NCBI GenBank assembly: GCA_964036295.1
Contig: OZ038469.1
Coordinates: 13,263,591-13,327,590, forward strand
Direction of reading: 5' to 3'
Source of the DNA: Plumapathes pennacea
Taxonomy: Eukaryota; Cnidaria; Anthozoa; Antipatharia; Myriopathidae
Length of the DNA stretch: 64,000 bases
The notes under the pieces were generated by a model. That model did not search any database and had not been told where the DNA came from. It saw nothing but the letters and a program-made list of their open reading frames with translations. The translations under genes were made by a program, and so were the position numbers. This document shows, piece after piece, positions 4,056 to 48,612 of this stretch. Each line of letters starts with the position of its first letter. Within the stretch, counting starts at the first letter, position 1.

Positions 4056-7000
4056 ATGTCAGTGTGCAAGACTGCTGGATTTGTGTTGATGCTGGTGTGG
4101 ATTACATTTATGATCTCTCCAGGTAAAATGTTAACTGATTTGTGGGGGGTGGTAGGGGTGTAGTAGACTGTGAAGATGGTTGAACAAGCAACTAACAACT
4201 AACCCATGTTTACTATCTCTGCTTCCTATGTACGTCAGAGGTCAGTGGAAACATTGGAAGAAATTTTGTGGTCGGATTTTTGAGTCAACATTTTTCGTTT
4301 AACGGCGGCGGCGTTAACAACTTGTACGTCACAAGTCGCAGCAATACTGTTGTCCGTGTGGAGGTTCCCTTTTTGAACATGGATCAGACCTATCACGTGA
4401 CCAGAGACACTGTGACAACCATAAAACTTAGTGACACCGTGCGCATGAAAGGTGTGACAGGTAAAAAGATAAAAGGTATTCGCGTCACATCTAATCACGA
4501 CATTGCAGTCTACGGAATAAATTTCTTTGATTTTAGTGGTGATGGATTTCTTGGACTTCCTTTGCACATGACTCAGACGGAATATGTGGTGCCATCGTAC
4601 ATTCCTAAGTATAAAAACGCTTTAGTTGGTATCATCGCCTCTGAAGACAACACAACTGTAGCTGTAACCCTGCGAACATCGGGAGCAGTGATGTACAAAG
4701 GAATACAATATGGAAACTTTGATACCATCACTGAAAATATTAATCAATTGGAGATTTTCCAAATTGCATGCGGCGCTGACCTGACTGGAACCAGAATACA
4801 TTCCAACAAGAAAGTATCTGTGTTCTCTGGAAACCAATGCGCCCAAGTCATTAATAAATACGCAAAGTGTGACCACCTGGTGGAACAGATCCCTCCCGTA
4901 AATCAATGGGGCACTCATCACGTGACCAGTCCCACACCAATGCGAATAACGAAAGACATATTCCGTGTTTTGGCCGCTTTCAATAAAACCGCGATAAGTG
5001 TTGGTGGTACCAGCACATCACTGCACCAGGGAGACTTTGCGGAGTATGACATTCCTTCGGACGACGCTCAAGAAATAAAATGTGACAAGCCCTGCCTGGT
5101 CGTCAAGTACAACAAAGGCCAAACTGCTGACTCCGTGCATACAGATCCCTTTATGGCAATCCTTCCCCCAGTAAGTAAATACACGCCAGCTGCTGTTCTG
5201 GCGACACCTTTGCTTGTTGATGGCAAAACCTTCACAACGTTCATCAGTATCATAATGAACACCTTGCACACTTCAGGACTTCTTGTTGATGATCAGCAGC
5301 ACGGCCTGACATGGGAAGAGATACAAGGAACGGACTTCTCTCATACATCCATGATCGCCAATAAAACAAGCTATAAAATTAGTCATCAATCAGAACACGC
5401 CCGTTTTTTTTCCTTCGTCAGTGGACACACGTGGTATAGTTCATTTGGTTTCCCAGGAAGCTGGTATGATGACCAAAATATTTCTGGAATTTGCCAACCC
5501 ACATTGAAATTTCCTGATGACGTAAACCAGACCTGCCGAGATTCCATCGCAGCCAACATAACCGGCTTCCCAAGTGTGCAGAACAATCCCTGTAATATCT
5601 CAGTAAGTTTCACCTACAGCGACACATTTGCCTCCAATGGACGCTGCCCTGATTCACAGCAGGTGATACGACGACAGTTTACAGGATTTGATTCATTTGA
5701 AAGAAAATACACTCATGAACAGACAATAACATCTTTACCAACAAGTAAGGGCGTTGTTTGTTTGAAAATGTACCTTGTTAATTATAGCTTCTTATATGCT
5801 GCTATTTCCTCGTCATATTCTTTTGAGTATTAAATTTGGTCGCGTTATTTTTCCGAGACCGAAACAAAGAGTTATTTTTATAATCATCAATTGCAAGAAA
5901 ACACTTGTAAGAGTAAGAGCCACTTAGAAAAACCAGCTAAGTCTCACGTTAATTATAAAAATATATTTATAACAGTCACGATATAAGCCACGTTCTGATT
6001 GGTCGAAGAGCGTGCTCCATAACTTTATCGTGCACACCCGTGCTCAATAATATGACGTGAGCAAATGCCGCTTTCTTTTGACTTTTTCTAGCTTTCCTCG
6101 TTTAAAAATTAACAGACGCTTTACAACTCAGAAGAAAATAGCTTTATTTTTCTAAAGAAAATCAATCAATCAATTTCAAAGGAAATCAGTAATGAAGTCT
6201 GAAATATTCTGTATTTCAACGGTCGGCACAGAAAATTGTATGAATCAAAACTCACCTATTTCTCGACGGCTTAATTCTCATGGACAGTGAAATCCATCAC
6301 AGCAAAGATAAATATCCATTAAGCCTTCAATGTTTTTGAAATGAAACGGCGTTCATTCATTCCGAAAGCCCCCATACTTGCAGCGTTTACAGTACAGTTT
6401 GCTGGCAGCTCGAATAACAAACAAGTCCGCTCGGCAAACATTTCTATCTCTTTTGTTCATAGTGATTATTCACATTCACATGAAAATTTGTTTTTCGCTT
6501 GTGTGCCTATGTTATAAAAGAATTGGTTCATGCTTTTAGCTGTGCGTCTATCGAGTTATAGATGCACTTGGGAAGTTGGGAGAGCACTCGTGAAGCTAGA
6601 GTTGCTCTCGGCCTTACGCTTCTCTCGTGCTCTCCCAACTTCCCGCGTGCATCCATAACTCGATAGGCGCACGCTAAGCATGAACCAATTCTTAACTTTG
6701 AGATAAAGAAAAATAATAAAATACTCTAGGCCTATATATATAAAATACTTGTATACATATATAAAAAGCTTTGCCAACACTCTTTGCTCATGAAAAGGTC
6801 CACCGGATGTCACGTGTTTTGGAGATCATATGTACGTGGTCATAAGGCGGGAGAACTACCCTTATTTGGACCCAAATCAGATGCACTTGGAAGATCCATC
6901 ATGCACCGCGTCTGAGTACAACAGCACACGCATCCTGTTTTACGTCCAACTCAACGAGTGTGGAACCGTTAAGAGCGTCAGCAATGACACCTTGATGTTC

Positions 7001-8946
7001 AAGAATAAGGTGACAGGAAAAATACGCAACGATGATGGCTCGGTAATAACGCGCTGGAACCTAGTCGAGTTTACTGTCAGTTGCTCACTTCAAAGAAACG
7101 CAAGTCTTGGTGGTCCCAGCTTTAAGCCTCAAGGAGTTATCACTGTAAAAGAAGGTAAAGGAAACCAATGCGCTGTATTTTACTTGATAAACACTCGAAG
7201 GGATGCAACTTAGTTTATCTTGAATTACAGTATCGAAAGGGGCGAAGGGGATATGGTTAGTTGTTTTAAGATATTCTACAGATGTTCTATTTTCAGTAGA
7301 TTGCCTGTTGCATTTTTACAAGACAGAAACAATTTGGAAATTCCGGGCCATGTGTTCAGAACCAAAAAAACCATATATAAAAAGTGAAAAACAATCATAA
7401 AGACACAGCTAATAAACAGCCATATTGTACACAACACAGCACATCTGAAGAACTTCAACATTTGTTTGGCTAGTCCTTCGAAAAACTAGTTTGGAACGAG
7501 AGCAGTTTTATAATGTTGTCTGTTTGTTTCTTAGCTGGGTATGGAAAACTAACTTTCACCATGGAACTGTACCACAACAGCCAGTACCAAACTGCGTACA
7601 AGAATTTTCCCGTTGATGTGGCATTGAACGAACGGCTTTATGTCCAGCTGGAAGTCACATCTAACACGTCAGATCTGGTCCTGTTCACCGAGAAATGCAC
7701 CGCCACACCTCAACCTCCAACAAATATTGGGCACGTCCTTCTAGAAGATGGGTAAGTTAAAAATCGATGAGTAACATTTCGCTTTGTGTAGCGACAAATA
7801 TGAATTAGAAGTTAAGTATTAGAGGCATTTTAATGTAAAATAATAATTAATAATTAATTAAAATAATTAAGTGATCAGAAGGAAATTATTTTATTTAACA
7901 AACTGATCGATATTTTGATTGATCTTGTGGTTTGCTGTTTCTTCCATGTTAGCATTTGGTGTTTCCGGCTTGTGACGCAAGCAAGCACGTGACGATTGCG
8001 CTTGTTGTACCTCTGATTGGTCGCTTTTTATAGATATTAGTTTGTAAAAATGTGCACTCCGTGTGCAACAATGGATAAATTTAACCAAATTTGCAGAAGT
8101 GACTTCAATAAACATTTTATTTACAGGTGTGTCAAAGATGGTACACTACAGTACAACTACCAAAGGTCCCGACGACAACGATTCAGTTTCCAGGCCTTCC
8201 GCTTTGTGGATGATTACCAGACGGTTTATCTGCAGTGCGATGTGTTGGCGTGTCACGCGACAAGTGACGATTCTCGCTGCACCAGAGGCTGTTTAAGTCA
8301 AGGAAGACGTAAGAGAAGGGAAGCTCCAGACAGTGAAGAGGGATACGAGAAAGGGTCAAAGTCTCATGCCGTTACAATTGGACCGATTGTAAAGGAAGAT
8401 GACAAAGACAACACCAACAAAGGTTAGTTCAGTTTAGAGCTGCAGTTACGTGCACGCAGTCCTTTGTCAGTTTTGTTCTACGTAAGAATGAACAGTAAAG
8501 ACGTGGCATTTATTTATAACACCAAAATATGACTCGGTGTTTAACATCAATTTGATTTGCACCATGTTTTGACCGTAATGACAGGCTAATAACATGTTTA
8601 GTCTGAGCAATCTTTTATTAATGGACTACAATTGAGCGGCCAGCATATTCACTGGCCAGTATAAAAACATGCAGGTGCCTTTGTGTGTGTTCCCAATAAA
8701 CAAGCACTTTTATATTTTAATTTATAAATTATATTTATTTTGTCAGGAACAGATGATTCGCAGCAGTCCAGTATCGTCCCTGTTGTTTCTGGAGCTGTGG
8801 CAGGTGTACTGGCCTTGGTCATCGTCTGTGCTACTGTATTGATTGCTTTACGCATGCTCAGACGCAGACCCGCTGGACCAAGAAACGTTGCTAACTCCAT
8901 TGACAACCCAGGATTTGACTGCAAAGAGATGACCACAGTCGCATGA
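4056..8946 (+). CDS. IgGFc-binding-N / ZP-domain transmembrane protein, copy 1
   Basis: Predicted coding exons are 4056-4122, 4239-5744, 6798-7154, 7535-7751, 8127-8422 and 8747-8946. All junctions are GT...AG, phases agree, and the product is 880 aa. Residues 1-23 form a signal peptide. About 60-370 match the IgGFc-binding protein N-terminal domain (Pfam IgGFc_binding), with hallmarks GFLGLPL, SEDNTTVAV, FSGNQC and CDHLVEQIPP. Three Cys segments follow. About 531-771 form a ZP domain (VTCFGDHMYVVIRRE to RCTRGC). A furin-type RRKRR lies at 776-780, a transmembrane helix at about 825-849, and a 31-residue tail contains DNPGF. Many N-glycosylation sequons occur. ZP domains polymerise after furin cleavage in known families, so a glycoprotein tethered to the membrane and then shed or assembled is likely. 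The ligand is unknown. The start is chosen because the signal peptide and ATG context are identical in all three copies. Confidence 0.9.
6518..6692. repeat. Fold-back MITE in intron 2 of copy 1
   Basis: A 175-bp inverted repeat has outer ends AAGAATTGGTTCATGC and GCATGAACCAATTCTT, with further pairing through CTATCGAGTTAT and GGGAAGTTGGGAGAGCAC. The same element is at 46185-46359 in copy 3. Intron 2 of copy 2 (24654-25201) lacks it. The rest of intron 2 (5745-6517) shows no gene. Confidence 0.8.
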
Positions 8947-8949
8947 AAT

Positions 8950-9589
8950 GTAAGAGATTGAATGAAGACTAGAAATATGCTATAGTGATGTAAACATTTT
9001 ATACTTGTTATCAAGCCTCTTATCTACTTTCCAAAGTTGGTCTTTTCATACCAAAGCCACTTATAAAAAGCTAAGACTCTCTGTCTCTCAATGATACCCT
9101 CGGATTTTTGTCCCGCGCCGTTAAGGTCTTATAAGACCTTGCTGCGAGCAGTTTTGAGGAATCTGGGGAGATTGTAAGAAACCTCAATACAAAGACTGAC
9201 TGATCACAAACGGGCGACTAGAAACGATGACTTCATGCAGGTGCACAAACCTGGAACGAACCTGTGCCTCACAAACGATTAATACACGACGTAAAACGAA
9301 ACCCGCAAAAAAACAATTAGTGGATAAAAAGTTACCATATACTCACCACTTATCAACCATTGGAATTTTGAGTTTTCACAACCAATGCAATCATATTGAA
9401 TCAACAATCAAACCGATCAATCACAATGATCAAAAAAATAAATACACCCGATTGTCTGACGACGTCTCTTCACTTAACTCTGAAGATCACTACCGCTTCA
9501 GGTGCTCGTGCAACGTCGATTACCAACAACAACTGAAGACTACTCACACCTGGACAATATTACTAGACGGACAATAAAAATACCATTGC
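8950..9589 (+). other. Probable 3'-UTR intron of copy 1, acceptor side lost
   Basis: Three bases after the stop a GTAAGAG donor occurs in all three copies. In copies 2 and 3 a good acceptor (CATTGCAG or CAATGCAG) follows 0.8 kb later. In copy 1 that acceptor lies in a stretch replaced by unrelated DNA (9590-10010). An 18-bp perfect palindrome, AAGGTCTTATAAGACCTT, sits at 9123-9140 and is kept in copy 3. AATAAA at 9575 could serve as a poly-A signal. Confidence 0.4.
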
Positions 9590-10010
9590 TTATGACCCAT
9601 CAAATATTTCCCCCCTCGCGTGATTGGTAGAATCGTGACACGTGACCGAATAACGTCCGCTCGTGAGCGGACGTTATCAGCGAATAACCCCCGCCTGGCG
9701 AAATAACGCTGTTTATTGACAATATCCGAACACTGCTCTATTTATTTAGTCACAAAAATCATTACAAGACGACTACTGAGGAGGACATCAATTTATTGGT
9801 CGGAAATGCAGTTCCAGAAAGCAGTAAAAAGCTTCACAGTTTCCGCGCCGTTATTTGCGCTGCGAGAGGAAATATTTGAAGGATAATAAAGACGATAAAC
9901 TACTTTTGGCTTCGGAAATATGCACGGATTTCGCTTCTCGGAACAGATAATATCCTCGGACAATTATCCGTGCATATTTCCTCGCCAAAAGTAGTTTATT
10001 GTTTATATCA
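9590..10010. mobile_element. Hairpin-rich insertion replacing the 3'-UTR acceptor
   Basis: Compared with block C, about 190 bp (49250-49437) is replaced here by about 420 bp. The new DNA contains a palindrome with arms ATAACGTCCGCTC and GAGCGGACGTTAT (9651-9678). It also has a large hairpin at about 9892-10004 with arms built on AAACTACTTTTGGC and AATATGCACGGA. The structure suggests a MITE insertion with a flanking deletion. Confidence 0.5.
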
Positions 10011-10475
10011 TCGATGAAGATGAGGAGCAATGAAGTAGTTTTGTTGTATATCAACTGCAGGATTTGTTTAAGTCACGGTGTGGTTAGTTTAGAACGGTTC
10101 CCACGTTTTTTTATTCAAATATGGTTGGTAGTTTTTTGTGACATTAGTTTAACAGGCTGGCCCCTTATATACTTCTTGTGCCGGGTATCTTGTTTTGCCA
10201 GTTTTATTATGATATGTACCTCATTGCTCAATTTTTTAGGAGATTGCTGTCTATGATCTGGGAAAGAGATTGTTCATTTCCTCTCGTGTAAAGCCGACGA
10301 GTCTCTTTCTTTGAAACGTAAACAGTATTTGAATTAGTTTTGCTTTTGCTTCCTAATAGTCACAACAGCAGCATCAGTAGCACTGTTCTGTCAAAAAGTG
10401 AGTGACCTTCACGGCTGCCATTACAACCAAAAACCGGCATGCAGTATAGGTGTCATGGCCGTAGCATGCATGCAG
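10011..10475 (+). other. Relict 3'-UTR-like DNA of copy 1
   Basis: This is collinear with 28214-28671 and 49441-49904, downstream of copies 2 and 3. No coding frame is conserved among the three. In copies 2 and 3 it lies in the predicted spliced 3'-UTR exon. Confidence 0.45.
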
Positions 10476-10646
10476 CCCGGGGGGGGACTCCCACAAAAAA
10501 ATGACGGGAATTTTCGTTTCGAGCCCTAAGAAGTACTAAAATGGGCATGGCTTGAGTTGCTTTGACCCCTAAAACGTACCAATAATAGCATGCCAAGAAA
10601 TTATAATTTCGATGCCTTTAATTGCTTTTAGGAGGGTATCATCAAG
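10476..10646 (+). mobile_element. Truncated 8-bp-TSD MITE; right end of block A
   Basis: This is the left half of the element complete at 28672-29064 and 49905-50289 (start CCCGGGGGGGGACTCCCAC). Similarity to the other blocks ends abruptly after ATCAAG at 10641-10646, so a duplication or rearrangement breakpoint lies inside the MITE. Confidence 0.75.
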
Positions 10647-12977: not shown

Positions 12978-13019
12978 CCGAAAGGTTTGATAGAATCGTT
13001 GAAGTGGACTCTTGGTAAA

Positions 13020-15529: not shown

Positions 15530-16245
15530 ATGATGAGCGCTTTTGGAAAAAACCATTGTTTTATGCTAAAAACCATTAAAATTGAAACTGTAAAAATGGT
15601 GAGCGCTTTTGGAGAAACCATTATTTTATGCTAAAACCCATAAAATAATGGTTCACACTAAAAGGGTTTATCATTTTTACACGCACAATTTTTAATGCTT
15701 TTGACCATAAAATAATGGTTTCCACCAAAAGGGTTCATCATTTTTACACGCACAATTTTTAATGCTTTTGACCATAAAACAATGGTTTCCACCAAAAGGG
15801 TTCATCATTTTTACACGCGCAATTTTTAAAGGTTTATAGCATAAAATAATGGTTTTACCAAAAAGGGCTTACCATTTTCACAGTCGCAATTGTTAATGCT
15901 TTTGACCATAAAACAATGGTTTCCACCAAAAGGGTTCATCATTTTTACACGCGCAATTTTTAAAGGTTTATAGCATAAAATAATGGTTTTACCAAAAAGG
16001 GCTTACCATTTTCACAGTCGCAATTGTTAATGCTTTTGACCATAAAACAATGGTTTCCACCAAAAGGGTTCATCATTTTTACACGCGCAATTTTTAAAGG
16101 TTTATAGCATAAAATAATGGTTTTACCAAAAAGGGCTTACCATTTTTACAGTCGCAATTGTTAATGCTTTTGACCATAAAACAATGGTTTCCAACAAAAG
16201 GGTTCATCATTTTTACACGCGCAATTTTTAAAGGTTTATAGCATA
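15530..16245. repeat. Minisatellite, 134-bp unit made of two related halves of about 67 bp
   Basis: The word AATGCTTTTGACCATAAAAC recurs at 15895, 16029 and 16163, exactly 134 bp apart. Each unit has a TTCATCATTTTTACACGCGC half and a diverged CTTACCATTTTCACAGTCGC half. Degenerate half-units start at about 15530. The halves also pair with one another as weak inverted repeats around ATAAAATAATGG. Confidence 0.85.
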
Positions 16246-22999: not shown

Positions 23000-25900
23000 A
23001 TGTCAGTGTGCAAGACTGCTGGGTTTGTGCTAATGATGGTGTGGATTACAATGATGATCTCTTCAGGTAAAATGTTAGCTGGTTTCTTGGGGAGGGGACG
23101 TATTAAAGTAGGTGTAAGGATGGTCAAACAAGCAATTCACGTTTGTTGTACAACAGGAGTCAGTGGAAACATTGGTAGAGACTTTGTTGTTGGATTTTTA
23201 AGCCAACATAGTGGATCCACAAGTAAAACAAACAACTTGTACGTCACAAGCCGAAACAATGCTCTTGTCCGTGTGGATGTTCCCTTTCTGCCAATGAATC
23301 AGACTTATCACGTGACCAGCGACAATGTGACAACCATAGAGCTCAGCGGCACCGTGCGCATGAATGCTGTGACAGGCAAAGAAAGAAAAGGCATCCGCGT
23401 CACGTCTAATCACGATATCGCAGTGTACGGATTAAATCTAGAATCGTACACCAGTGATGGATTTCTCGGACTTCCTTTGCACATGACTCAGACGGAATAT
23501 GTTGTACCATCGTACACTCCAAGCTCTACCTCTTTGGTTGGTATCGTCGCCTCAGAAGACAACACAGTTGTAGCTGTAACTCTGAGAACATCAGGAACAG
23601 TGACGTACAATTCGATACATTATGGTAACGGCGAGACAATCACTGAAAATTTGAATCAATTGGAGGTTTTCCAAGTTGCATGTGGTGCTGACCTGACTGG
23701 AACCAGAGTAATGTCCAACAAGAAAGTGTCTGTATTTTCTGGAAACCAATGCACCACTGTTAAAGTCTCATATTGTGACCACCTGGTGGAACAGATCCCT
23801 CCTGTGAACCAGTGGGGCACTCATCACGTGACCAGTCCCACACCAATGCGAATAGCTGGAGACATATTCCGTGTTTTGGCCGCTTTCACTAAAACCGCGA
23901 TAAGTGTTGGTGGTAACCACGCATCACTTGACCAGGGAGACTTTGCGGAGTATGACATTCCTTCGAACGATTCGCGTGAAATAGAGTGTGACAAGCCCTG
24001 CCTGGTTGTCAAGTACAACAAAGGCGGTAGAGCTGATTCTATGCTTACAGATCCATTTATGACAATCCTTCCTCCTGTAAGTAAATACACGCCAGCTGCT
24101 CTTGTTGCGACACCACTGCTTCCTGGGCAGGGCGGAAGATACACTACGTTCATCAGCATCATAATGAATACCTCGGACACTTCAGGACTTCTTGTTGATG
24201 ATCAGCTGCACGGACTGACATGGGAGAAGATTCAAGGGACATACCTCTCTCGAACATTCATGATCGCCAATAAGACAAGCTACAAAATCAGCCATCAATC
24301 AGAACACGCCCGTTTCCTTCCTCTTGTTAGTGGGCACGCATCTGATGAATCATTTGGTTTTCCAGGAAGTTGGTATGATGACCAGAATATTTCTGAAATT
24401 TGCCGACCCACTTTGATGTATCCTGATGACGTAAACCAGACCTGCCGAGATTCCATCGCAGTAAACATCAGCGGTCTCCCAAGTGTCCAGTACAATCTCT
24501 GTAATATCTCAGTACGCTTTACCTACACCGACACATTTGCCTCCAATGGACGCTGCCCTGATTCACAGCAGGTGATACGGCGACAGTTTACCGGAGTTGA
24601 TTCTTTTGGAAGAGGATACACTCATGAACAGACAATAACGTCGTTCCCAACAAGTAAGGGCGTTGTTTGTTTGAAAATGTACCTTGTTAATTATAGCTAC
24701 TTTTTACTATATGGTTTTATTCTATTTTCTCGTCATATTCTCTTGAATATTAAATTTAGTCTCGTACTTTTTCTTTGACCGAAACACATTGGCAACACTA
24801 CTACTTCTAAGAATGCACTAAGGACACTCTTTCCCCTTCTCCCCCTGCCCCACCCCCTATCCTCCCCTGCGTCCCATTTCGAGCTAAGAGGGCCTGTTCG
24901 CAGATTATTTGGTAAACTGCGATTATCACAGTCAACAACAACAAACAAGAACTATAGTCTATCTACACTCAAACATTCCTGGGGTGTTAAGAAATCACCT
25001 CTAAAAATGAGACCCACTTAGAGTATAACCAAGGGTAATCAAGCTAAGTTTTAAGTTTTCCTAGGAAACGAATAAAATAGCAAAGTATACTTAGGCAAAA
25101 GCTTTTAAAGTACTTTAAAGCTCAGCCATTTTCTATTCTTTCTTTTTTTTTTTTTTTTTTTTGTTTTTGTTTTTTTTTGTTTTTTTTTTGCCTATAAACA
25201 GATGCGCCAGACGTAACGTGTTCTGGAGATCATATGCACGTGGTTATAAGACGGGAGAACTACCCGTACCTGGACCCAAACCAGATGCACTTGGAGGATC
25301 CGTCATGCACCACGTCAGAGTACAACAGCACACACATCCTGTTTCACATCCGGCTCAACGAGTGTGGAACCGTTAAAAGCGTCATCAATGACACCCTTAT
25401 GTACAAGAATAAGGTGACAGGAAAAATACGCAGCGATGATGGCTCAGTAATAACGCGCTGGAACCAAGTAGAGTTTATCGTCAGTTGCTCACTTCAAAGA
25501 AACGCAAGCCTTGGTGGTCCCAGCTTTAAGCCTCAAGGAATTATCACTGTAAACGAAGGTAAAGGGAACCAATGCGATATATCTTACTTGATAAACACTC
25601 GAAGGCATACAACTAAGTTCATCTTGAATTACAGTTTCGAAAAGGGGGAAGGGGGTGTGGTTTGTTGTATTTAGATATTCTACAAATGTTTTACCTTCTC
25701 AGTAGATAGCCTGTTGTATTTTTACAAGACAGGACCAGTTTGGAAATTCTGGGCCATGTGTTGTTCAGAACCAAAAAAACCTTATATAAAGTGAAAAACA
25801 ATCTTAAAGACACAGCTAATAAACAGCCATATTGTACAAAACACAGCACATTTGAAGAACTTTAACAGTTGTTTGGCTAGTCCCTCGAAAAACTAGTTTG

Positions 25901-27349
25901 GAACGAGAGTAGTTTTATAATAATATCATCTGTTTGTTTCTTCTAGCTGGGTATGGAAAACTAACTTTCACCATGGAACTGTACCACAACAGTCAGTATC
26001 AAACTGCGCACAAGAACTTTCCCGTTGATGTGGCGTTGAACGAACGGCTTTATGTCCAGCTGGAAGTCACATCTAACACGTCAGATCTGGTCCTGTTCAC
26101 CGAGAAATGCACCGCCACACCTCAGCCTCCAACAAATATCGGGCACGTCCTTCTAGAAGATGGGTAAGTTGAAAATCGATAAGTAACTTTTCGCTTTGTG
26201 TATAGCGACAAATATGAATCAGGAGTTAATTATCAGAGGCATAAATAGTAGAGGAATGAGGAGGAAAATGTTCTATTTAATAAACCGATCGATATTTTGA
26301 TTGATCTTGTGGTTTGCAGTGCCTTCTATGTTAGGATTTGGTGTTTCCGGCACGTGACGATTGCGGTTGTTGCACCTCTCATTGGTCCCTTTTTTCATAG
26401 CTATTCGTAAAAATGTGCACTCCGTGTGCAACAATGGATAAATTTAGTCAAATTTGCAGAAGTGATTTCAATAAATATTAATCTGCAGGTGTGTCAAAGA
26501 TGGTACACTACAGTACAACTACCAAAGGTCCAGACGACAACGATTTAGTTTCCAGGCCTTCCGCTTTGTGGATGACTACCAGACGGTTTATCTGCAGTGC
26601 GATGTGTTGGCGTGTCACGCGACAAGTGACGATTCTCGCTGCACCAGAGGCTGTTTAAGTCAAGGAAGACGTAAGAGAAGGGAAGCTCCAGACAGTCAAG
26701 AGGGATACGAGAAAGGGTCAAAGTCTCATGCCGTTACAATTGGGCCGATTGTAAAGGAAGATGACAAAGACAATACCAACAAAGGTTAGTTCAGTTTTGA
26801 GCTGTTTTCTTTTTTTTTTTTAGTGACGTGCACGCAGTCGTTCGTCAGATTCGTTCTACGTAAGAATGAAAAGTAAAGACATGGCATTCACTGACAGCAA
26901 CATATGACTCAGTGTTTGACATCAAATTGATTTGCACTATGTTTACAATTATGGAGTTTTTTTTTTTTTTACCCGGCGTAATGACAGGCTAATAACATGT
27001 TTAGTCTGAGCAATCTTTTATTAATGGACTGCAATTGAGCGGGCAGCATATTGAATGGCCAGTATGAAAACACGCTGGTGCAGGTGTGTTCGGAATAAAC
27101 AAGCACTTTAATATATATTTTGATTTAGAAGTCCTTTTTATTTTGTCAGGAACAAATGATTCGCAGCAGTCCAGTATCGTCCCTGCTGTTTCTGGAGCTG
27201 TGGCAGGTGTGCTGGCCTTGGCAATCATCTGTGCCGCTGTATTAGTTGCTTTACGCATGCTCAGACGGAAACCCGCTGGACCAAGCCAAACTACTAACTC
27301 TGTTGACAACCCAGGATTTGACTGCAAAGAGATGAACACAGTCGCCTGA
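23000..27349 (+). CDS. IgGFc-binding-N / ZP-domain transmembrane protein, copy 2
   Basis: Exons are 23000-23066, 23157-24653, 25202-25558, 25947-26163, 26489-26784 and 27150-27349, giving 877 aa. Domain order is as in copy 1: signal peptide, FCGBP-like N-terminal domain (GFLGLPL, ASEDNTVVAV, FSGNQC, CDHLVEQIPP), Cys-rich link, ZP domain (VTCSGDHMHVVIRRE), RRKRR site, transmembrane helix and DNPGF tail. This is the most diverged copy. Most changes are in exon 2, with a shorter loop before CDHLVEQ, while exons 4-6 are nearly unchanged. Intron 1 is only 90 nt, in frame and free of stops, so its retention would add 30 residues after the signal peptide. Intron 2 ends in a long T-rich acceptor tract (25142-25190). 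The role is inferred as for copy 1. Confidence 0.9.
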
Positions 27350-34262: not shown

Positions 34263-37200
34263 TTCTTAGAATCTTCGTCAATTCTTCCGCCGAACCCGGG
34301 AGAGTTAAGCTCGGCGCTGCTTTTTGTCTGTTTTTCGATTGATGTTGCCTATCTCCGTGCCGATCTTCGTTTCATGCAACTTGGCTCTTTGGTCACCAAA
34401 CAAGTTGTGACGTAGTCGTCTGTATAAACCCTGGGCCGTTTTCCAAGGACACTGCAAGGTTTCGCATATCGTTTTCCACATCTTGATCTCGCTCGAAGAT
34501 CCTTCTGTACTAAATTGTCAGTACTGGTGTTGAAAGCCTCCGCCTTGACGGTAAAGTGCTCTTCCTTTCTGCTAGTTCTGTTTTCTTCGCGCCTTTCATG
34601 TTTGAACTGGGCCTCGTCTTTGGCCATCCTGTTCACTTAAAAAGTCTGAACTTTTAATTAGTGTATATTTAACATTTTGTTTGGCTGTCTTTGGATTCCC
34701 CGGCTCTCACCAATGCAGCGCGAAGCAGAAGAAACCGTAAAATTTTACCCGATTACAACATTTTTTTTACCCAATACCAGAATGCGTGGCCTCACGTTCC
34801 AAACAAATTACGTCCACACTGTGTTTTCATACGTTTTTAAAAATTAAACCACCGTTTCCGATTTTCTACACTAGTTATCCGTTTTCGAAGTCGACCGCCC
34901 ATACTAATTCGTCTTCATTTAGGTACGCATTCGTTTTCGAAAGTCCCTACTTTCGAAACCGTTTTTGCAAACCTACGGTTTTCAAGTCGTCGTTTTATTG
35001 TTGACGGAAGGCAAAAACGCATTCTTAAAAATGTATGCATTTTCAAACGAAAATAGACTAGTGTGGACATGGCCTGAAAGGCTGGTTTTCACAGTGCCAT
35101 CAACAAAGAACCTTTTGCGCAAATCAAATCCTGTTTTTACACATTGTCGCGAGAGTCATTCTCACCCTGTAGTAGGTAAATACTTGCGTATGCACGGCCG
35201 CAAACATTGTTTTAAAAATATGTACGCACAATTTTAATCTAGTTGAAGATAATTCATATTTAAAGTGTTCTGTCTTTCTGCTAGTTGTGCTTTCTACTAG
35301 CAATTCTGGTTTAAACTTGGACTGTTCTTTGGCCATCCTCTTCACTTAGCAAATCAGAACCTTAAAGATGTTTATCAAACTTTATGTTTGGCTGTCTTGT
35401 TTAGATCCCCCAGCTGCCACCAATGCAACGAAGTAAAACAAACTGCGACATTTTACCCGCGTTTACAACTTTGTTTACTCCATGCTAGAATACGCGGCCT
35501 TGCACTCCAGATAACAGCTAATTGAAAGGCTGGACAGGTTTTCACAGTGTCATTAGTAGAACTGTAGAAGCAATGCAAAGTAATTTATGCGTTAGCCTGT
35601 TTTTACACAAAGTATCGCGAGAATCATTCTCCCCTGTAGTACGTAAATAATTATGTATGCACAGCCGCAAAAACTGTTTATAATTTTTACTGAGCAGAAT
35701 TGAGCTGTATCAATAGATAATTAAAAATGCCGTCGTGTACTAATAAATAAGAGTAAGCCATGGGATACTGTATTAATTTTAACAAAAAAATCCTGAATTA
35801 TGTATGTTTTGACACTATTACAGTAGACATTTTCTTAGTAACCATAAAATACGTGCCTTGCCTTGCCGTCACTGACACTTCTGAATTCGGGGGACTGGGT
35901 ACTTGGTAACTTTCCACGTGATGTGCTTGTGGCTCATGAACAAAACAATCAGCTTCTTAGAATCTTCGACAGTTCTCCCGCCGAACCTGGGAGAGTTCAG
36001 CTTGGCGCTGTTTTTCGTCTGTTTTTCGATTGATGTTGCCTATATCCGTGCCGATCTTCGTTTCAAGTAACTCGGTGCTTTAGTTGTGACGTCGTCTGTA
36101 TCGACCCTGGGCCGTTTTCCAAGGACGCTGCAAGGTTTCGCATACCCTTTGGCATACCTTGATCTCGCTCTAAGATCCTTTTGTAATAAATCGTCAGTAC
36201 TGGTGTTGAAAGCCTCCTCCTTGAAGGTACAGTGCTCTTCCTTTCTGCTAGTTCTGTTTTCTGGGAGCGTTTCGGGTTAGAACTGGGCCTCGTCTTTGGC
36301 CAGCCTGTTCACTTAAAAAGTCCGAACTTTGAAGTGGTGTTTATCAAATTTTTATTTGGCTGTCTTTGGACTCCCCCGGCTCCCGCCAATGCAACGAAGT
36401 AGAAAAAACCGTGAAATTTTACCCGATTACAACATATTTTTACCACCATATCAGAATGCGTGCGTTTTTGAAAAACCTTCGTTTTCTTTTTTATACACTA
36501 TTCCTCCGTTTTCGAAGTCGACTGCCCACACTAATTCGTTTTCATTTGAGAACGCATTCGTTTTCGAAATTGTCCATTTTGGGAACTTTTTTTGCAAACC
36601 TACGATTCTCGAGTTGTCGTTTTGGTGTTGACAGAAGGCAAAGACGCATTCATAAAAATGTATGCATTTTCAAACGAAAATTGATTGGTGGACGGAGCCT
36701 GAAAAGCTGGTTTTCACAGTGTCATCAACAGAAACAAAGAACCTTTTGCGGAAGTAAAATCCTGTTTTTACACATTGTCGCGAGAGTCATTCTCACCCTG
36801 TAGTAGGTAAATACTTGCGTATGCACGGCCGCAAACATTGTTTTAAAAAATATGTATGCACAATTTTAATCTAGTTGAAGATAATTCATATTTAAAGTGT
36901 TCTTTCTCTCTGCCAGTTGTGCTTTCTACGAGCAATTCTGGTTTAGACTTGGGCTGTTCTTTAGCCATCCTCTTCACTTAGCAAATCAGAACCTTAAAGC
37001 ATGTTTATTAAACTTTATGTTTGGCTTTCTTGTTTAAATCCACCAGCTTCCACCAATGCAACGAAGTAAAACAAACTGCGACATTTTACCCGCGTTTACA
37101 ACTTTGTTTACTCCATGCTAGAATACGCGGCCTTGCACTCCAGATAAAAGCTAATTGAAAGGCTGGACAGGTCTTCACAGTGTCATATTAGTAGAAGTAG

Positions 37201-39090
37201 GAGCAATGCAAAGAAATTTATGCGCTAGCCCGTTTTTACACAAAGTATCGCGAGAATCATTCTCCCCTGTAGTACGTAAATAATTATGTATGCACAGCCG
37301 CAAAAACTGTTTATAATTCTTACTGAGCAGAATTAAGCTGTATCAATAGATAATTAAAAATGCCGTCGTGTACTAATAAATAAGAGTAAGCCATGGGATA
37401 CTGTATTAATTTTAACAAAAAAATCCTGCATTATGTATGTTTTGACACTTTATTACAGTAGACATTTTCTTAGTAACCATAAAATACGTGCCTTGCCATG
37501 CCGTCACTGACAGTTCTGAGTCCGGGGGACTGGGTACTTGGTAACTTTCCACGTGATCTGCTTGTGGCTCATGAACAAAACAGTCAGCTTCTTAGAATCT
37601 TCGACAGTTCTCTCGCCGAACCTGGGAGAGTTAAGCTCGGCACTGTTTTTCGTCTGTTTTTCGATTGATGTTGCCTATATCCGTGCCGATCTTCGTTTCA
37701 AGTAACTCGGTGTTTTAGTTGACGTCGTCTGTATCGACCCTGGGCCGTTTTCCAAGGACGCTGCAAGGTTTCGCATACCGTCTGCCATACCTTGATCTCG
37801 CTCGAAGATCCTTCTGTACTAAATTGTCAGTACTGGTGTTGAAAGCCTCCGCCTTGAAGGTAAAGTGCTCTTCCTTTCTGTTAGTTCTGTTTTCTGGGAG
37901 CGTTTCAGGTTGGAACTGGGTCTCGTCTTTGGCCAGCCTGTTCACTTAAAAAGTCCGAACTTTGAAGTGGTGTTTATCAAATTTTTATTTGGCTGTCTTT
38001 GGACTCCCCCGGCTTCCGCCAATGCAACGAAGTAGAAAAAACCGTGAAATTTTACGCGATCACAACATATTTTTTACCACCATATCAGAATGCGTGCGTT
38101 TTTGAAAAACCTTCGTTTTCGTTTTTCTACACTATTCCTCCATCTTCGATGTCGACTGCCCACACTAATTCGTTTTCATTTGAGAACGCATTCGTTTTCG
38201 AGAGTGTCCATTTTGGGAACCTTTTCTGCAAACCTACGATTCTCAAGTTGTCGTTTTGGTGTTGACAGAAGGCAAAAACGCATTCATAAAAATGTATGCA
38301 TTTTCAAACGAAAATTGATTGGTGGGCGGAGCCTGAAAGGCTGGTTTTCACAGTGTCATCAACAAAAACAAAGAACCTTTTGCGGAAGTAAAATCCTGTT
38401 TTTACACATTGTCGTGAAAGTTATTTTCACCCTGTAGTAGGTAAATACTTACGTATGCACGGCCGCAAACATTGTTTTAAAAAATATGTATGCACAATTT
38501 TAATCTAATTGAAGATAATTCATATTTAAAGTGTTCTGTCTTTCTGCTAGTTGTGCTTTCTACTAGCAATTCTGGTTTAAACTTGGGCTGTTCTTTGGCC
38601 ATCCTCTTTTAGCAAATTAGAACTTTAAAGATGTTTATCAAACTTTATGTTTGGCTGTCTTCTTTAGATCCCCCAGCTCACACCAATGCAACGAAGTAAA
38701 ACAAACTGCGACATTTTGACCGCCTTTACAACTTTGTTTACCCCATGCTAAAATACGCGGCCTTTGCACTCCAGATAAAAGCTAACTGAAAGGCTGGACA
38801 GGTTTTCACAGTGTCAATAGTAGAAGTAGGAGCAAGGCAAAGAAATTTATGCGCTAGCCTGTTTTTACACAAAGTATCCCGAGAATCATTCTCCCCTGTA
38901 GTACGTAAATAATAATATTATTATGTATGCACGGCCGCAAAAACTGTTGATAATTCTTATAGAGCAGAATTGAGCTGTATCAATTGGTAATTAAAAATGC
39001 CGTCGTGCACTAATAAATACGAGTAAGTCATAGGATACTGTATTAATTTTAACAAAAAAAATCCTGCATTATATATATTTTGGCACTTAT
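34263..39090. repeat. Tandem array of about 1.64-1.7-kb units, three units
   Basis: Units start with CTTCTTAGAATCTTCG at about 34263, 35955 and 37590. Each unit has an A half (minus-strand frame starting MNRMAKDE in several units) and a B half (MKRMAKEQ). These share an M-x-R-[ML]-A-K opening and a TSRKxEHF segment, so the unit itself came from an older duplication. GCACGGCCGCAAAC marks each half. The same array follows copy 3 (53706-58777) and precedes copy 1 (1-790). The frames are short, vary in length between units and lack a known domain. Confidence 0.75.
34817..35078. mobile_element. MITE with GTCCACAC termini inside array unit 1
   Basis: The left end has CGTCCACACTG and the right end TAGTGTGGACA, about 245 bp apart. 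The interior is rich in CGTTTTCGAA-type words. Other units carry versions with decayed ends. Confidence 0.4.
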
Positions 39091-42175: not shown

Positions 42176-42749
42176 TTGTATTTAGCACTTGGGGGTGTGG
42201 ATGAATTGAAATCAAGGGCCAAATTACAATTTAAGGGAGCTAAATTGGAAACAGAAAGGGTCAAATCAGTACCATGTAGAACTGTTTGAGCCCTTCTTGC
42301 TCATAACGGCCCCACTGTGGGCCATACTGGCCCAAATGACTTTGGGGCCGAATTGGCTTTTGGGGCCAAATCAGCACTTTTGATTTTACAGTGCATATAT
42401 GAATGAAGACCTTTGCCCGGTGTCACACTTTAGCGGAGTTTTGAATGTAAGGTTGACACCACTGTACCTGCAATCAAAATTCAGGTCATTATTGTTTGGT
42501 TGTTTTGGTTAGCTCACTTTATACTTATGAGAATAAAGTCACCGCAATCAAACTGAAACATCTTAATTGATTGTGAGAACCTTTTCATGTCTCAAGGCAG
42601 CTAGGCCTGCAGAAATTCATTATATGTCTCAGTCTCTGCTTTATCGTTTGCTTTTTGTTTGTTTAAGTCGCTGCTGGAAGTTCATATACAGTTCATAACA
42701 AGCTCATATTAGTAGTCATATTAGTCATAACAAGTTCATAACAAGCTCG

Positions 42750-42904
42750 GCTTCATAACTCGGTAGTGAGAGCGTCGTACCCGCTGTATCGCAAAGGTCA
42801 TGGGCTCAATTCCCGTTTAAGCCTGGAATTTTTCCAGGCTTTCCTTCCAACTGCTTTAAAGTTACTTTATATAACTGCGAGGGCCACTTTGATTATCATT
42901 CTAA
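42750..42904 (+). mobile_element. tRNA-derived SINE, copy in block C
   Basis: This is the same element as 1535-1690 at the same position relative to the gene, inherited by block duplication and differing by a few bases. Confidence 0.7.
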
Positions 42905-43527
42905 GAAAATTTTCCTGGTACAAGATTTGTTGCCGTCTATCGTAATAAATGCTAGAAAGAGAAGTTGAGTTGTCAGGTTACGGGATATAGGGTAGATGCT
43001 ATGTCATCCGTGTTTTACGAGGTCCTGCTGGTAACTATAAAGCGCGGTGGACAATTCAAAGTTTGACCCAAATAGGGAATCAGTTACTTCAAAAACTAGT
43101 ATTATGCCACGTACTCATTTTATAAAGAATCTCGATTTATTCTATGTTGTAAACATTGTTCGTGATAAAGAATAGAACAGTACTAAATTGGTCTATATTA
43201 ATATATGGTTTAATAACATGCATACAATAATTTCTACATTCTGATTGGCTGAGCGCGCGTCAATTTATCCCAAACAGTGCAAAAATGTATAAATAACAGT
43301 GCAGAAATATGAAATTAAGAGTGCAGAAATTTGAAATTGAAGATTGCCGATAGTTGGCGCGCGTATCCGCGGCAAAGCCAGACAAAACAGAAAGCGTTTT
43401 CATTCCTCAGGACGATTCCGATTCTGTTTCGAGAAAACAAAGTTCTTGAGACACTTGTGAATTGTAACGAAATTGAAAAAAAAAAAAAAATGCACGCCGT
43501 AAATTATTGTATGCATGTTATTGACAA
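42905..43527 (+). other. 5' flank of copy 3
   Basis: This is near-identical to block A except that the Helitron is absent; its empty site is 43122/43123. It keeps the TATAAATA at about 43287 and the poly-A tract at about 43476. Confidence 0.5.
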
Positions 43528-43687
43528 GTAATCACATGATTTCTCGTGCAATTTTGGAATAAATGAGCACTCGTAAAGTTTTCAAAGACCACAAATTGCA
43601 CTCGCGCGGCGCTCGTGCAATTTTGTGGTCTTTGAAAATTTACTCGTGCTCATTTATTCCAAATTGCACTCGAAATCATGCGATTAC
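43528..43687. repeat. 160-bp hairpin MITE just upstream of copy 3
   Basis: This is the same inverted repeat as 3855-4014, with a few arm changes (for example TTTCTCGTG for TTTCGAGTG). Confidence 0.8.
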
Positions 43688-43728
43688 CTATACAAACAAT
43701 TTATAAATTTTTCTTCGTTTAGAACATT

Positions 43729-46700
43729 ATGTCAGTGTGCAAGACTGCTGGATTTGTGTTGATGCTGGTGTGGATTACATTTATGATCTCTCCAGGTAAA
43801 ATGTTAACTGATTTGTGGGGGTGGTAGGGGTGTAGTAGACTGTGAAGATGGTTGAACAAGCAACTAACAACTAACCCATGTTTACTATCTCTGCTTCCTA
43901 TGTACGTCAGAGGTCAGTGGAAACATTGGAAGAAATTTTGTGGTCGGATTTTTGAGTCAACATTTTTCGTTTAACGGCGGCGGCGTTAACAACTTGTACG
44001 TCACAAGTCGCAGCAATACTGTTGTCCGTGTGGAGGTTCCCTTTTTGAACATGGATCAGACCTATCACGTGACCAGAGACACTGTGACAACCATAAAACT
44101 TAGTGACACCGTGCGCATGAAAGGTGTGACAGGTAAAAAGATAAAAGGTATTCGCGTCACATCTAATCACGACATTGCAGTCTACGGAATAAATTTCTTA
44201 GATTTTACTGGTGATGGATTTCTTGGACTTCCTTTGCACATGACTCAGACGGAATATGTGGTGCCATCGTACATTCCTAAGTATAGAAACGCTTTAGTTG
44301 GTATAGTCGCCTCTGAAGACAACACAACTGTAGCTGTAACCCTGCGAACATCGGGAGCAGTGATGTACAAAGGGATACAATATGGAAACTTTGATACCAT
44401 CACTGAAAATATTAATCAATTGGAGATTTTCCAAATTGCATGCGGCGCTGACCTGACTGGAACCAGAATACATTCCAACAAGAAAGTATCTGTGTTCTCT
44501 GGAAACCAATGCGCCCGAGTCATTAATAAATACGCAAAGTGTGACCACCTGGTGGAACAGATCCCTCCCGTAAATCAATGGGGCACTCGTCACGTGACCA
44601 CTCCCACACAAATGCGAATAACGAAAGACATATTCCGTGTTTTAGCCGCTTTCAATAAAACCGCGATAAGTGTTGGTGGTACCAACACATCACTGCACCA
44701 GGGAGACTTTGCGGAGTATGACATTCCTTCGGACGACGCTCAAGAAATAAAATGTGACAAGCCCTGCCTGGTCGTCAAGTACAACAAAGGCCAAACTGCT
44801 GACTCCGTGCATACAGATCCCTTTATGGCAATCCTTCCCCCAGTAAGTAAATACACGCCAGCTGCTGTTCTGGCGACACCTTTGCTTGTTGATGGCATAA
44901 CCTTCACAACGTTCATCAGTATCATAATGAACACCTTGCACACTTCAGGACTTCTTGTTGATGGTCAGCAGCACGGCCTGACATGGGAAGAGATACAAGG
45001 AACGGACTTCTCTCATACATCCATGATCGCCAATAAAACAAGCTATAAAATTAGTCATCAATCAGAACACGCCCGTTTTTTTTCCTTCGTCAGTGGACAC
45101 ACGTGGTATAGTTCATTTGGTTTCCCGGGAAGCTGGTATGATGACCAAAATATTTCTGGAATTTGCCAACCCACATTGAAATTTCCTGATGACGTAAACC
45201 AGACCTGCCGAGATTCCATCGCAGCCAACATAACCGGCTTCCCAAGTGTGCAGAACAATCCCTGTAATATCTCAGTAAGTTTCACCTACAGCGACACATT
45301 TGCCTCCAATGGACGCTGCCCTGATTCACAGCAGGTGATACGACGAGAGTTTACAGGATTTGATTCATTTGAAAGAAAATACACTCATGAACAGACAATA
45401 ACATCTTTACCAACAAGTAAGGGCGTTGTTTGTTTGAAAATGTACCTTGTTAATTATAGCTTCTTATATGCTGCTATTTCCTCGTCATATTCTTTTGAGT
45501 ATTAAATTTGGTCGCTTTATTTTTCCGAGACCGAAACAAAGAGTTATTTTTATAATCATCAATTGCAAGAAAACACTTGTAAGAGTAAGAGCCACTTAGA
45601 AAAACCAGCTAAGTCTCACGTTAATTATAAAAATATATTTATAACAGTCACGATATAAGCCACATTCTGATTGGTCGAAGAGTGTGCTCCATAACTTTAT
45701 CGTGCACACCCGTGCTCAACAATATGACGTGAGCAAATGCCGCTTTCTTTTGAATTTTTCTAGCTTTCCTCGTTTAAAAATTAACAGACGCTTTACAACT
45801 CAGAAGAAAATAGCTTTATTTTTCTAAAGAAAATCAATCAATCAATTTCAAAGGAAATCAGTAATGAAGTCTGAAATATTCTGTATTTCAACGGTCGGCA
45901 CAGAAAATTGTATGAATCAAAACTCACCTATTTCTCGACGGCTTAATTCTCATGGACAGTGAAATCCATCACAGCAAAGATAAATATCCATTAAGCCTTC
46001 AATGTTTTTGAAATGAAACGGCGTTCATTCATTCCGAAAGCCCCCATACTTGCAGTGTTTACAGTTTGCTGGCAGCTCGAATAACAAACAAGTCCGCTCG
46101 GCAAACATTTCTATCTCTTTTGTTCATAGTGATTATTCACATTCACATGGAAATTTGTTTTTCGCTTGCGTGCCTATGTTATAAAAGAATTGGTTCATGC
46201 TTTTAGCTGTGCGTCTATCGAGTTATAGATGCACTTGGGAAGTTGGGAGAGCACTCGTGAAGCTAGAGTTGCTCTCGGCCTTACGCTTCTCTCGTGCTCT
46301 CCCAACTTCCCGCGTGCATCCATAACTCGATAGGCGCACGCTAAGCATGAACCAATTCTTAACTTTGAGATAAAGAAAAATAAAATACTCTAGGCCTATA
46401 TATATAAAATACTTATATACATATATAAAAAGCTTTGCCAACACTCTTTGCTCATGAAAAGGTCCACCGGATGTCACGTGTTTTGGAGATCATATATACG
46501 TGGTCATAAGGCGGGAGAACTACCCTTATTTGGACCCAAATCAGATGCACTTGGAAGATCCATCATGCACCGCGTCTGAGTACAACAGCACACACATCCT
46601 GTTTTACGTCCAACTCAACGAGTGTGGAACCGTTAAGAGCGTCAGCAATGACACCTTGATGTTCAAGAATAAGGTGACAGGAAAAATACGCAACGATGAT

Positions 46701-48612
46701 GGCTCGGTAATAACGCGCTGGAACCTAGTCGAGTTTACTGTCAGTTGCTCACTTCAAAGAAACGCAAGTCTTGGTGGTCCCAGCTTTAAGCCTCAAGGAG
46801 TTATCACTGTAAAAGAAGGTAAAGGGAACCAATGCGCTGTATTTTACTTGATAAACACTCGAGGGGATGCAACTTAGTTTATCTTGAATTACAGTATCGA
46901 AAGGGGCGAAGGGGATATGGTTAGTTGTATTAAGATATTCTACAGATGTTCTATTTTCAGTAGATAGCCTGTTGTATTTTTACAAGACAGAAACAATTTG
47001 GAAATTCTGGGCCATGTGTTGTTCAGAACCAAAAAAACTATATAAAAAGTGAAAAACAATCATAAAGACACAGCTAATAAACAGCCATATTGTACACAAC
47101 ACAGCACATTTGAAGAACTTCAACATTTGTTTGGCTAGTCCCTCGAAAAACTAGTTTGGAACGAGAGTAGTTTTATAATGTTATCTGTTTGTTTCTTCTA
47201 GCTGGGTATGGAAAACTAACTTTCACCATGGAACTGTACCACAACAGCCAGTACCAAACTGCGTACAAGAATTTTCCCGTTGATGTGGCATTGAACGAAC
47301 GGCTTTATGTCCAGCTGGAAGTCACATCTAACACGTCTGATATGGTCCTGTTCACCGAGAAATGCACCGCCACATCTCAACCTCCAACAAATATCGGGCA
47401 CGTCCTTCTAGAAGATGGGTAGGTTAAAAATCGATGAGTAACTTTTCGCTTTGTGTAGCGACAAAATGAATTAGAAGTTAAGTATTAGAGGCATTTTAAT
47501 GTAAAATAATAATTAATAATTAATTAAAATAATTAAGTGATCAGAAGGAAATTATTTTATTTAACAAACTGATCGATATTTTGATTGATCTTGTGGTTTG
47601 CTGTTTCTTCCATGTTAGCATTTGGTGGTTTCGGCTTGTGACGCAAGCAAGCACGTGACGATTGCGCTTGTTGTACCTCTGATTGGTCGCTTTTTATAGA
47701 TATTAGTTTGTAAAAATGTGCAATCCGTGTGCAACAATGGATAAATTTAACCAAATTTGCAGAAGTGACTTCAATAAACATTTTATTTACAGGTGTGTCA
47801 AAGATGGTACACTACAGTACAACTACCAAAGGTCCCGACGACAACGATTTAGCTTCCAGGCCTTCCGCTTTGTGGATGATTACCAGACGGTTTATCTGCA
47901 ATGCGATGTGTTGGCGTGTCACGCGACAAGTGACGATTCTCGCTGCACCAGAGGCTGTTTAAGTCAAGGAAGACGTAAGAGAAGGGAAGCTCCAGACAGT
48001 CAAGAGGGATACGAGAAAGGGTCAAAGTCCCATGCCGTTACAATTGGACCGATTGTAAAGGAAGATGACAAAGACAACACCAACAAAGGTTAGTTCAGTT
48101 TAGAGCTGCAGTTACGTGCACGCAGTCCTTTGTCAGTTTTGTTCTACGTAAGAATGAACAGTAAAGACGTGGCATTTATTTATAACACCAAAAGATGACT
48201 CGGTGTTTAACATCAATTTGATTTGCACCATGTTTTGACCGTAATGACAGGCTAATAACATGTTTAGTCTGAGCAATCTTTTATTAATGGACTGCAATTG
48301 AGTGGCCAGCATATTCAGTGGCCAGTATAAAAACACGCAGGTGCCTTTGTGTGTGTTCCCAATAAACAAGCACTTCTATTGTTTAATTTATAAATCCTAT
48401 TTATTTTGTCAGGAACAGATGATTTGCAGCAGTCCAGTATCGTCCCTGTTGTTTCTGGAGCTGTGGCAGGTGTACTGGCCTTGGTCATCGTCTGTGCTAC
48501 TGTATTGATTGCTTTACGCATGCTCAGACGCAGACCCGCTGGACCAAGAAACGTTGCTAACTCCATTGACAACCCAGGATTTGACTGCAAAGAGATGACC
48601 ACAGTCGCATGA
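43729..48612 (+). CDS. IgGFc-binding-N / ZP-domain transmembrane protein, copy 3
   Basis: Exons are 43729-43795, 43911-45416, 46462-46818, 47202-47418, 47793-48088 and 48413-48612, giving 880 aa. The architecture is identical to copy 1. By eye the two proteins differ at about 18 of 880 residues, 12 of them in exon 2 (for example CAQV to CARV and THHVTSPTP to TRHVTTPTQ). Introns and flanks are nearly identical too. Exon 2 shows about 12 replacement and 4 silent changes, so purifying selection on these recent copies looks weak or some change is favoured. The exon 4 donor is GTAGGT, where the other copies have GTAAGT. The signal peptide, FCGBP-like and ZP cysteines, RRKRR site, transmembrane helix and DNPGF tail are all kept. 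It may be a true paralogue or the other haplotype of copy 1. Confidence 0.9.
46185..46359. repeat. Fold-back MITE in intron 2 of copy 3
   Basis: This is the same 175-bp inverted repeat as 6518-6692, at the same intron position. Confidence 0.8.

Follow-up and report, generated by a model that had tools for sequence, protein, structure and literature searches.

Introduction

In human FCGBP a head of the IgGFc_binding family (PF17517) is followed by vWD repeats. Proteins with a ZP domain are cleaved at furin-type sites, and their assembly takes place through the ZP module; adhesion G-protein-coupled receptors (GPCRs) link an ectodomain to signalling. To our knowledge IgG is absent from invertebrates and the name IgGFc_binding is historical. 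Here we describe genes of the antipatharian Plumapathes pennacea in which one such head stands in front of several different bodies. The stretch analysed, hereafter the window, comprises 64,000 nucleotides of contig OZ038469.1 (C8:13,263,591-13,327,590), and the genome searched comprises 290 Mb in 24 contigs. Three genes in the window encode an IgGFc_binding head ahead of a ZP module. The head belongs to the same family as that of FCGBP and other PF17517 proteins (E about 1e-62), and a further gene on contig C5 has a head with EGF, Ig and FN3 domains nearby. In contrast to the vWD repeats of FCGBP, what follows the head in the genes described below is ZP, FN3 or a GPS and seven-transmembrane (7TM) region.

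Other known systems share some of these parts. Alpha-tectorin-type proteins carry extracellular front domains ahead of a ZP module, but that front is NIDO/vWD and the gene is single, whereas here the front is PF17517 and the genes form a variable array. A large ectodomain ahead of GPS and 7tm_2 is common to adhesion GPCRs and the family on contig C10 described below. The Alr complex of Hydractinia likewise consists of tandem paralogues with variable ectodomains; these are Ig-like, whereas here the variable domain is IgGFc_binding and one genome was compared. Alr loci are mentioned in passages of PMC7563517 (PubMed Central, PMC), and in passages of PMC7333891 the IgGFc name denotes similarity of the vWD type. 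Skeletal-matrix ZP proteins of corals resemble the window genes in their ZP domain, R-X-K/R-R site and membrane segment, as described in parts of PMC4043741 and PMC4890752. However, the Acropora millepora protein G8HTB6 has only 414 residues, with a signal peptide, a low-complexity region and a membrane segment (PMC4043741), and the relevant passages of both papers do not mention an IgGFc domain. As far as those passages go, the coral proteins are the nearest published case found for a plain matrix family. Each part of the system is already known; in searches limited to open-licence PMC literature we found no protein combining IgGFc_binding with a ZP domain, no report of IgGFc with an adhesion GPCR, and no reuse of one variable head across ZP, FN3 and adhesion-GPCR bodies.

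Gene models in the window

The window carries three collinear genes on the plus strand (4056-8946, 23000-27349 and 43729-48612), here copies 1, 2 and 3, which are members g4, g5 and g6 of a larger array. Each has six coding exons of 67, 1506 (1497 in copy 2), 357, 217, 296 and 200 nt, separated by introns of phases 1, 1, 1, 2 and 1, all 15 of which run from GT to AG. After splicing, each gene reads through to its stop without interruption, over 880, 877 and 880 residues. In order, the exons encode a signal exon, the IgGFc_binding head with a linker, ZP-N, ZP-C, the sequence RRKRR and a single membrane segment, the last assigned by eye. The features are as follows, with the evidence for each in brackets; all lie on the plus strand.

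4056-8946, plus: gene copy 1 (g4), exons 4056-4122, 4239-5744, 6798-7154, 7535-7751, 8127-8422 and 8747-8946 (splicing, open frame, Pfam)
4239-5744, plus: copy 1 exon 2, phase 1-1, encoding the IgGFc_binding head with its linker (PF17517 E 3.4e-62, splice borders)
4289-4321, plus: copy 1 hypervariable segment 1 (head variability comparison, as for segments 2 to 7)
4517-4540, plus: copy 1 hypervariable segment 2
4601-4621, plus: copy 1 hypervariable segment 3
4841-4870, plus: copy 1 hypervariable segment 4
5117-5140, plus: copy 1 hypervariable segment 5
5213-5233, plus: copy 1 hypervariable segment 6
5426-5440, plus: copy 1 hypervariable segment 7
5492-5743, plus: copy 1 linker, about 84 residues, also in a solitary C8 ZP gene (copy 2 linker 47% identical over 85 residues)
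6798-7154, plus: copy 1 exon 3, ZP-N (PF23344 E 5.3e-14)
7535-7751, plus: copy 1 exon 4, first half of ZP-C (PF00100 E 2.3e-14)
8127-8422, plus: copy 1 exon 5, remaining half of ZP-C with predicted cleavage site (PF00100 E 9e-9)
8305-8319, plus: copy 1 RRKRR, predicted furin-type site (translation)
8747-8946, plus: copy 1 exon 6, encoding a short tail and a membrane segment placed by eye at 8782-8850 (translation)
23000-27349, plus: gene copy 2 (g5), exons 23000-23066, 23157-24653, 25202-25558, 25947-26163, 26489-26784 and 27150-27349, RRKRR at 26667-26681 (splicing, Pfam)
43729-48612, plus: gene copy 3 (g6), exons 43729-43795, 43911-45416, 46462-46818, 47202-47418, 47793-48088 and 48413-48612, RRKRR at 47971-47985 (splicing, Pfam)

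A sequence-only reading of this DNA had proposed the three genes with their common exons, phases, RRKRR site and transmembrane exon, and had named the IgGFc_binding and ZP domains. Both proposals hold, the second by Pfam matches above curated cut-offs for all three domains. For copies 1-3 the E-values were 3.4e-62, 3.7e-61 and 4.9e-63 for the IgGFc_binding domain of exon 2 (PF17517), 5.3e-14, 5.2e-15 and 9.9e-14 for ZP-N in exon 3 (PF23344), and 9e-9, 6.5e-10 and 9.8e-9 for ZP-C in exon 5 (PF00100); exon 4 was scanned in copy 1 only and gave ZP-C at 2.3e-14. On the spliced 880-residue product of copy 1 the domains follow one another as IgGFc_binding (4.9e-62), ZP-N (9e-13) and ZP-C (3.3e-29). 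Thus ZP-N stands before ZP-C, and a furin-type site and membrane segment follow, as in a ZP-domain protein. The RRKRR site is present in the translations of 3/3 window copies and of 10/10 array proteins. Because splice sites, phases, open frames and the exon order in 10 of 10 copies agree, we model the six exons as one transcript.

The C8 array

A profile search of the genome with PF17517, in which 20 candidates were scored, returned 17 matches over the cut-off. Eleven form a plus-strand array at C8:13.20-13.42 Mb, five lie on the minus strand of C10 (7.37-7.76 Mb) and one lies on C5. With the head of copy 2 as query there were 21 matches, comprising the same genes, further pieces of damaged C10 heads and one match to the linker only. 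All six exons are present in 10/11 C8 copies, with open frames of 877-880 residues, and these ten IgGFc-ZP genes encode 8 distinct proteins. Acceptors are AG throughout and donors are GT, bar a GC donor at intron 5 of g3 and g7. Among 43 listed ZP-N matches in the genome 10 are those of the array, and none of the other 33 listed adjoins a PF17517 match. The tandem expansion proposed from the window is therefore part of an array of ten intact IgGFc-ZP genes; the three genes first described stand, but they are 3 of 10 genes with this six-exon structure, and other genes carry the head with no ZP module.

The stretch C8:13,223,484-13,303,070 is repeated at 13,306,712-13,386,297, over 79.6 kb and at 99.87% identity. 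The repeat corresponds to window positions 1-39480 and 43122-64000, with four genes per unit (g2-g5 and g6-g9), and its junction falls within the window, such that copies 1 and 2 lie in the first unit and copy 3 in the second. It may be a very recent duplication or an assembly error in which haplotypes were misplaced. Were two haplotypes laid in tandem, there would be six ZP-type genes and not ten. The near identity of the units fits this, as does that of the partner proteins, for g2/g6, g3/g7, g4/g8 and g5/g9 differ by only 8, 0, 1 and 0 residues. However, the window genes themselves differ: copies 1 and 3 are 98.1% identical across 6.1 kb with 18 residue differences between their proteins, and copies 1 and 2 show 84-91% DNA identity in corresponding gene pieces (downstream of copies 2 and 3 the flanking sequences match at 95.8% identity). 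Moreover, g10 and g11 lie outside the repeat pair. The tandem family therefore stands either way, and we consider a partly artefactual array somewhat unlikely. The question touches copy number only and not what the genes may do.

The head exon on other anchors

The eleventh C8 head gene lies at the upstream edge of the array (C8:13,201,898-13,211,257). Its exons 1 and 2 precede eight FN3-type exons, each of phase 1-1, and a final membrane exon, and the resulting frame is open over 1366 residues with GT/AG at every intron. Of the FN3 exons three were scanned, and each exceeded the Pfam cut-off. The product of the last exon is 56% identical to that of exon 6 over 59 residues. A short cytoplasmic tail motif, IDNPGF(D/E)CKE, is common to the ZP-type (window 8747-8946) and FN3-type genes (C8:13211067-13211257) and is possibly a sorting signal, a function at which we guess.

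The C10 version of the head shares 75% identity with the head of copy 2. Two of the five heads (C10a and C10b) are full-length, with the same acceptor and donor as the C8 head exon, and C10a has the same signal exon too. Behind the head of C10a the same strand carries first GPS (4.5e-10), then an exon matching 7tm_2 (2.3e-12), then a further 7tm_2 piece that narrowly misses the cut-off (E 0.0012, with 18.6 bits where 20.6 are required), and last a long tail frame. As a gene model, C10a therefore has GPS and 7tm_2 behind an ectodomain, the layout of an adhesion GPCR. Exons matching 7tm_2 lie on the same strand at most 9 kb downstream of 4/5 C10 heads (150 of 295 candidates scored). In heads C10c and C10d roughly the first hundred residues are missing and the frame shifts near residue 476, and C10e is fragmented and has a stop. 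The head of the C5 gene is divergent, at 32-35% identity.

A 7tm_2 exon of the C10 family was also seen at C10:7639189-7639335, with no head found nearby. A cluster of 7tm_2 exons lies at C8:12953234-13073914, about 130-250 kb upstream of the array, with no PF17517 match there. Upstream of two damaged heads, C10e (L033 56-1060, reverse strand) and C10c (L031 start, reverse strand), we noted by eye an open frame resembling a rhodopsin-type GPCR, which suggests that the C10 unit was duplicated together with this neighbour.

Variable segments and recombination in the heads

Changes among the heads cluster in seven short segments, and these are common to ZP-type and GPCR-type heads. A mask of 40 variable columns, built from four C8 ZP heads, was compared with 502 shifted masks. 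Between the full-length GPCR-type heads C10a and C10b 19/40 mask columns differ, against a mean of 5.1 for shifted masks (1/502 as good), and between the FN3-type head and C10a 25/40 differ, against 10.7 (0/502). The reverse mask, built from GPCR-type heads, was equalled in the four C8 pairs by 0, 3, 4 and 1 of 502 shifts. Inside a 35-column mask C10a and C10b differ with proportions of nonsynonymous (pN) and synonymous (pS) differences of 0.350 and 0.271, compared with 0.050 and 0.090 outside. Variable residues are thus concentrated in the same segments across paralogues, the pair g4/g2 being the exception. For nine gene pairs the ratio of nonsynonymous to synonymous rates (dN/dS, by the Nei-Gojobori method) ranges from 0.31 to 0.86 for the head, compared with 0.15-0.25 for the ZP module; three duplicate pairs showed at most one change. 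Clustering of nonsynonymous changes is clear in three of five pairs (0, 0 and 1 of 2000 shuffles).

The heads also bear the marks of recombination. Introns 1-4 of g3 and g11 are about 99% identical, whereas exon 2 is 93.5% identical; intron 5 is 83.1% identical with a large gap. The exon-2 differences form a tract of ~1 kb, dropping to 0-2% at the exon ends, with a smaller rise in exon 3. Using counts rebuilt from rounded identities, there are 13/1265 differences in the introns and 98/1500 in the head (Fisher 5.5e-15). Synonymous changes in this pair cluster too (4/2000 shuffles), which is what a conversion tract predicts. Moreover, a test of the pairwise homoplasy index (PHI) type over the ten heads, with 382 informative sites, gave 1067 against 1276 +/- 29 (0/500), and the closest relative of a given head shifts between alignment windows. 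Taken together, these alignments identify the heads as recombination mosaics. Exchange between the C8 and C10 families is only hinted at, by margins of 1-3 percentage points in two alignment windows. In columns 281-320 the ZP-type head of g11 is 88.3% and 86.7% identical to two GPCR-type heads and 85.0% to its sister g3, and in columns 201-240 it is 86.0% identical to one GPCR-type head, 85.1% to g3 and 77.2% to the other GPCR-type head.

Linker, relatives and fold of the head

Besides the IgGFc domain, exon 2 encodes a linker about 85 residues long. This linker occurs without a head at C8:17,905,665-17,905,916, about 47-48% identical to that of copy 2 (85 residues) and 140 bases upstream of a ZP-N match that is itself 51% identical to the ZP-N of copy 2. 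No head was seen within the 2.5 kb examined around this solitary ZP gene (L037, C8:17904001-17906500). Similarity of the linker to HYR (PF23237) is weak in copy 2 (E 0.094, 13.3 bits against a cut-off of 27) and absent in copy 1 and L037. The linker may derive from a ZP gene to which the head was then fused, and the signal exon and exon 2 would later have been copied onto FN3 and GPCR bodies. Since exon 2 is of phase 1-1, such a cassette could be transferred without a change of frame. In a protein tree of the heads rooted on C5, the C8 heads split from those of C10 with support 92 and the FN3-type head groups with g5, g3 and g11 (69); the outgroup branch is very long and supports within C10 are low (52 and 47).

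No solved structure matched the head in sequence, two hits being chance matches (E 0.67 and 0.78). Visual inspection had hinted at repeats or a propeller, but this idea was dropped after head segments were aligned with one another, as 69-201 of 500 shuffles did equally well in five comparisons. One bacterial relative of the head was confirmed, at 25% identity, in a scan of prokaryote genomes with two short peptides that was no census. A search for the GFP family, used as an anthozoan marker, yielded no match, and its controls gave none either.

Elsewhere in the window, three tandem intergenic units of ~1.63 kb, 89-94% identical, lie behind copies 2 and 3 (34846-39088 and 54290-58777), and a 134-base unit is present in 4.5 tandem copies at 15638-16245.

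Interpretation

The architectures described above, read as gene models, together with their common exon borders and hypervariable segments, tandem duplication and recombinant heads, are shown at the level of sequence. We propose that they represent a recognition family whose anchors are interchangeable and whose diversity arose by duplication and gene conversion, and give this reading a probability of about 0.5. The cassette consists of the signal exon and the phase 1-1 exon encoding the head with its linker. In the gene models it precedes three kinds of anchor: in 10 genes ZP-N/ZP-C, a furin-type site and a membrane tail; in 1 gene eight FN3 domains and a membrane tail; and on C10, where two heads are full-length and three damaged, GPS/7TM exons resembling those of adhesion GPCRs. 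The hypervariable segments would form a surface that contacts ligands. By analogy with other ZP proteins, the ZP module and cleavage site suggest a surface or matrix filament: the ZP forms would be cut at RRKRR and polymerise, displaying their heads on it, the FN3 form would carry its head on a stalk, and the GPCR forms would report binding through the same kind of head. Ligands would probably be variable, such as microbial surfaces, or tissue antigens or heads from other individuals of the species, with variety in the heads arising by gene conversion between copies. The sequence-only reading, a surface or matrix filament with a possible recognition head, was right as to domains, exons and tandem growth, but did not reach far enough, since FN3 and GPS/7TM anchors carry the head as well. 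Its recognition head gains from the higher dN/dS of head than ZP, from variation of the same segments in separate lineages and from the recombinant heads; strict positive selection is not demonstrated.

Several observations weigh against a recognition family. Within the segments pS is raised as well and pN is not clearly greater, with ratios of 0.68-1.29 in the four pairs that have synonymous changes there, hence the caution over positive selection; g4/g6 and g4/g10 have 4 nonsynonymous and 0 synonymous changes inside segments and their ratio is undefined. For g4/g2 enrichment is absent, pN being 0.010 both within the segments and elsewhere, and nonsynonymous clustering is not clear in g3/g11 (102/2000 shuffles) or g4/g10 (391/2000). 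On the receptor side, 3/5 GPCR-type heads are damaged, and C10c has a GPS but no 7TM exon within 10 kb among the matches listed from the scored candidates. Coding ratios of the C10 receptor exons are 0.50, 0.65 and 0.49, followed by an undefined value for transmembrane segments 6 and 7, which have 4 nonsynonymous and no synonymous changes, and by 1.34 for the tail; the final three of these five were computed against damaged copy e. They fail to demonstrate coding constraint. Lastly, AlphaFold2 models of the head from the three window copies reached a predicted local distance difference test (pLDDT) score of 30, and a shared binding face of the segments is therefore unproven.

The genes might instead be a structural family of apical matrix, mucus or skeletal matrix, expanded for dosage, with the variable segments being loops under relaxed constraint. 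A segment pN/pS near 1 would suit such loops, and passages of PMC8382919, PMC4043741 and PMC4890752 place transmembrane ZP proteins with an R-X-K/R-R site in coral skeletal matrices. Relaxed loops do not account so readily for the variation of the same segments in heads on three kinds of anchor, for recombinant heads beside nearly identical flanking introns, or for a head joined to receptor exons. The A. millepora protein, as described in the relevant part of PMC4043741, is also too short to hold the array head. We therefore regard a purely structural role as unlikely. A specialised form of the recognition family, which we think quite unlikely, would be a self/non-self system that pairs a recombining IgGFc head on a cleavable ZP filament with an adhesion GPCR from another chromosome bearing the same head, the matrix heads acting as ligand, decoy or matching partner of the receptor heads; head variants may even pass between the ZP and GPCR families, as the two column windows of g11 hint. 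Gamete recognition, in which egg-coat-like ZP proteins with a fast-evolving front would meet gamete receptors carrying the same head, is improbable, for although other animals have ZP egg coats with fast-evolving front parts and tandem, recombining heads are compatible with it, no result of this analysis points toward gametes.

Significance

If a recognition family with interchangeable anchors is the correct reading, a single animal would use one variable module on a filament, on a G-protein receptor and on an adhesive membrane protein, and this would be a clear case of domain shuffling by way of phase 1-1 exons. It would moreover provide a concrete candidate for a recognition gene in an animal without antibodies. 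Were the self/non-self form true, such recognition would be built on a domain so far not implicated in it. Under the broader recognition reading the little-understood IgGFc_binding domain would also gain a testable putative binding surface, made up of seven short segments, each open to exchange from one paralogue to another.

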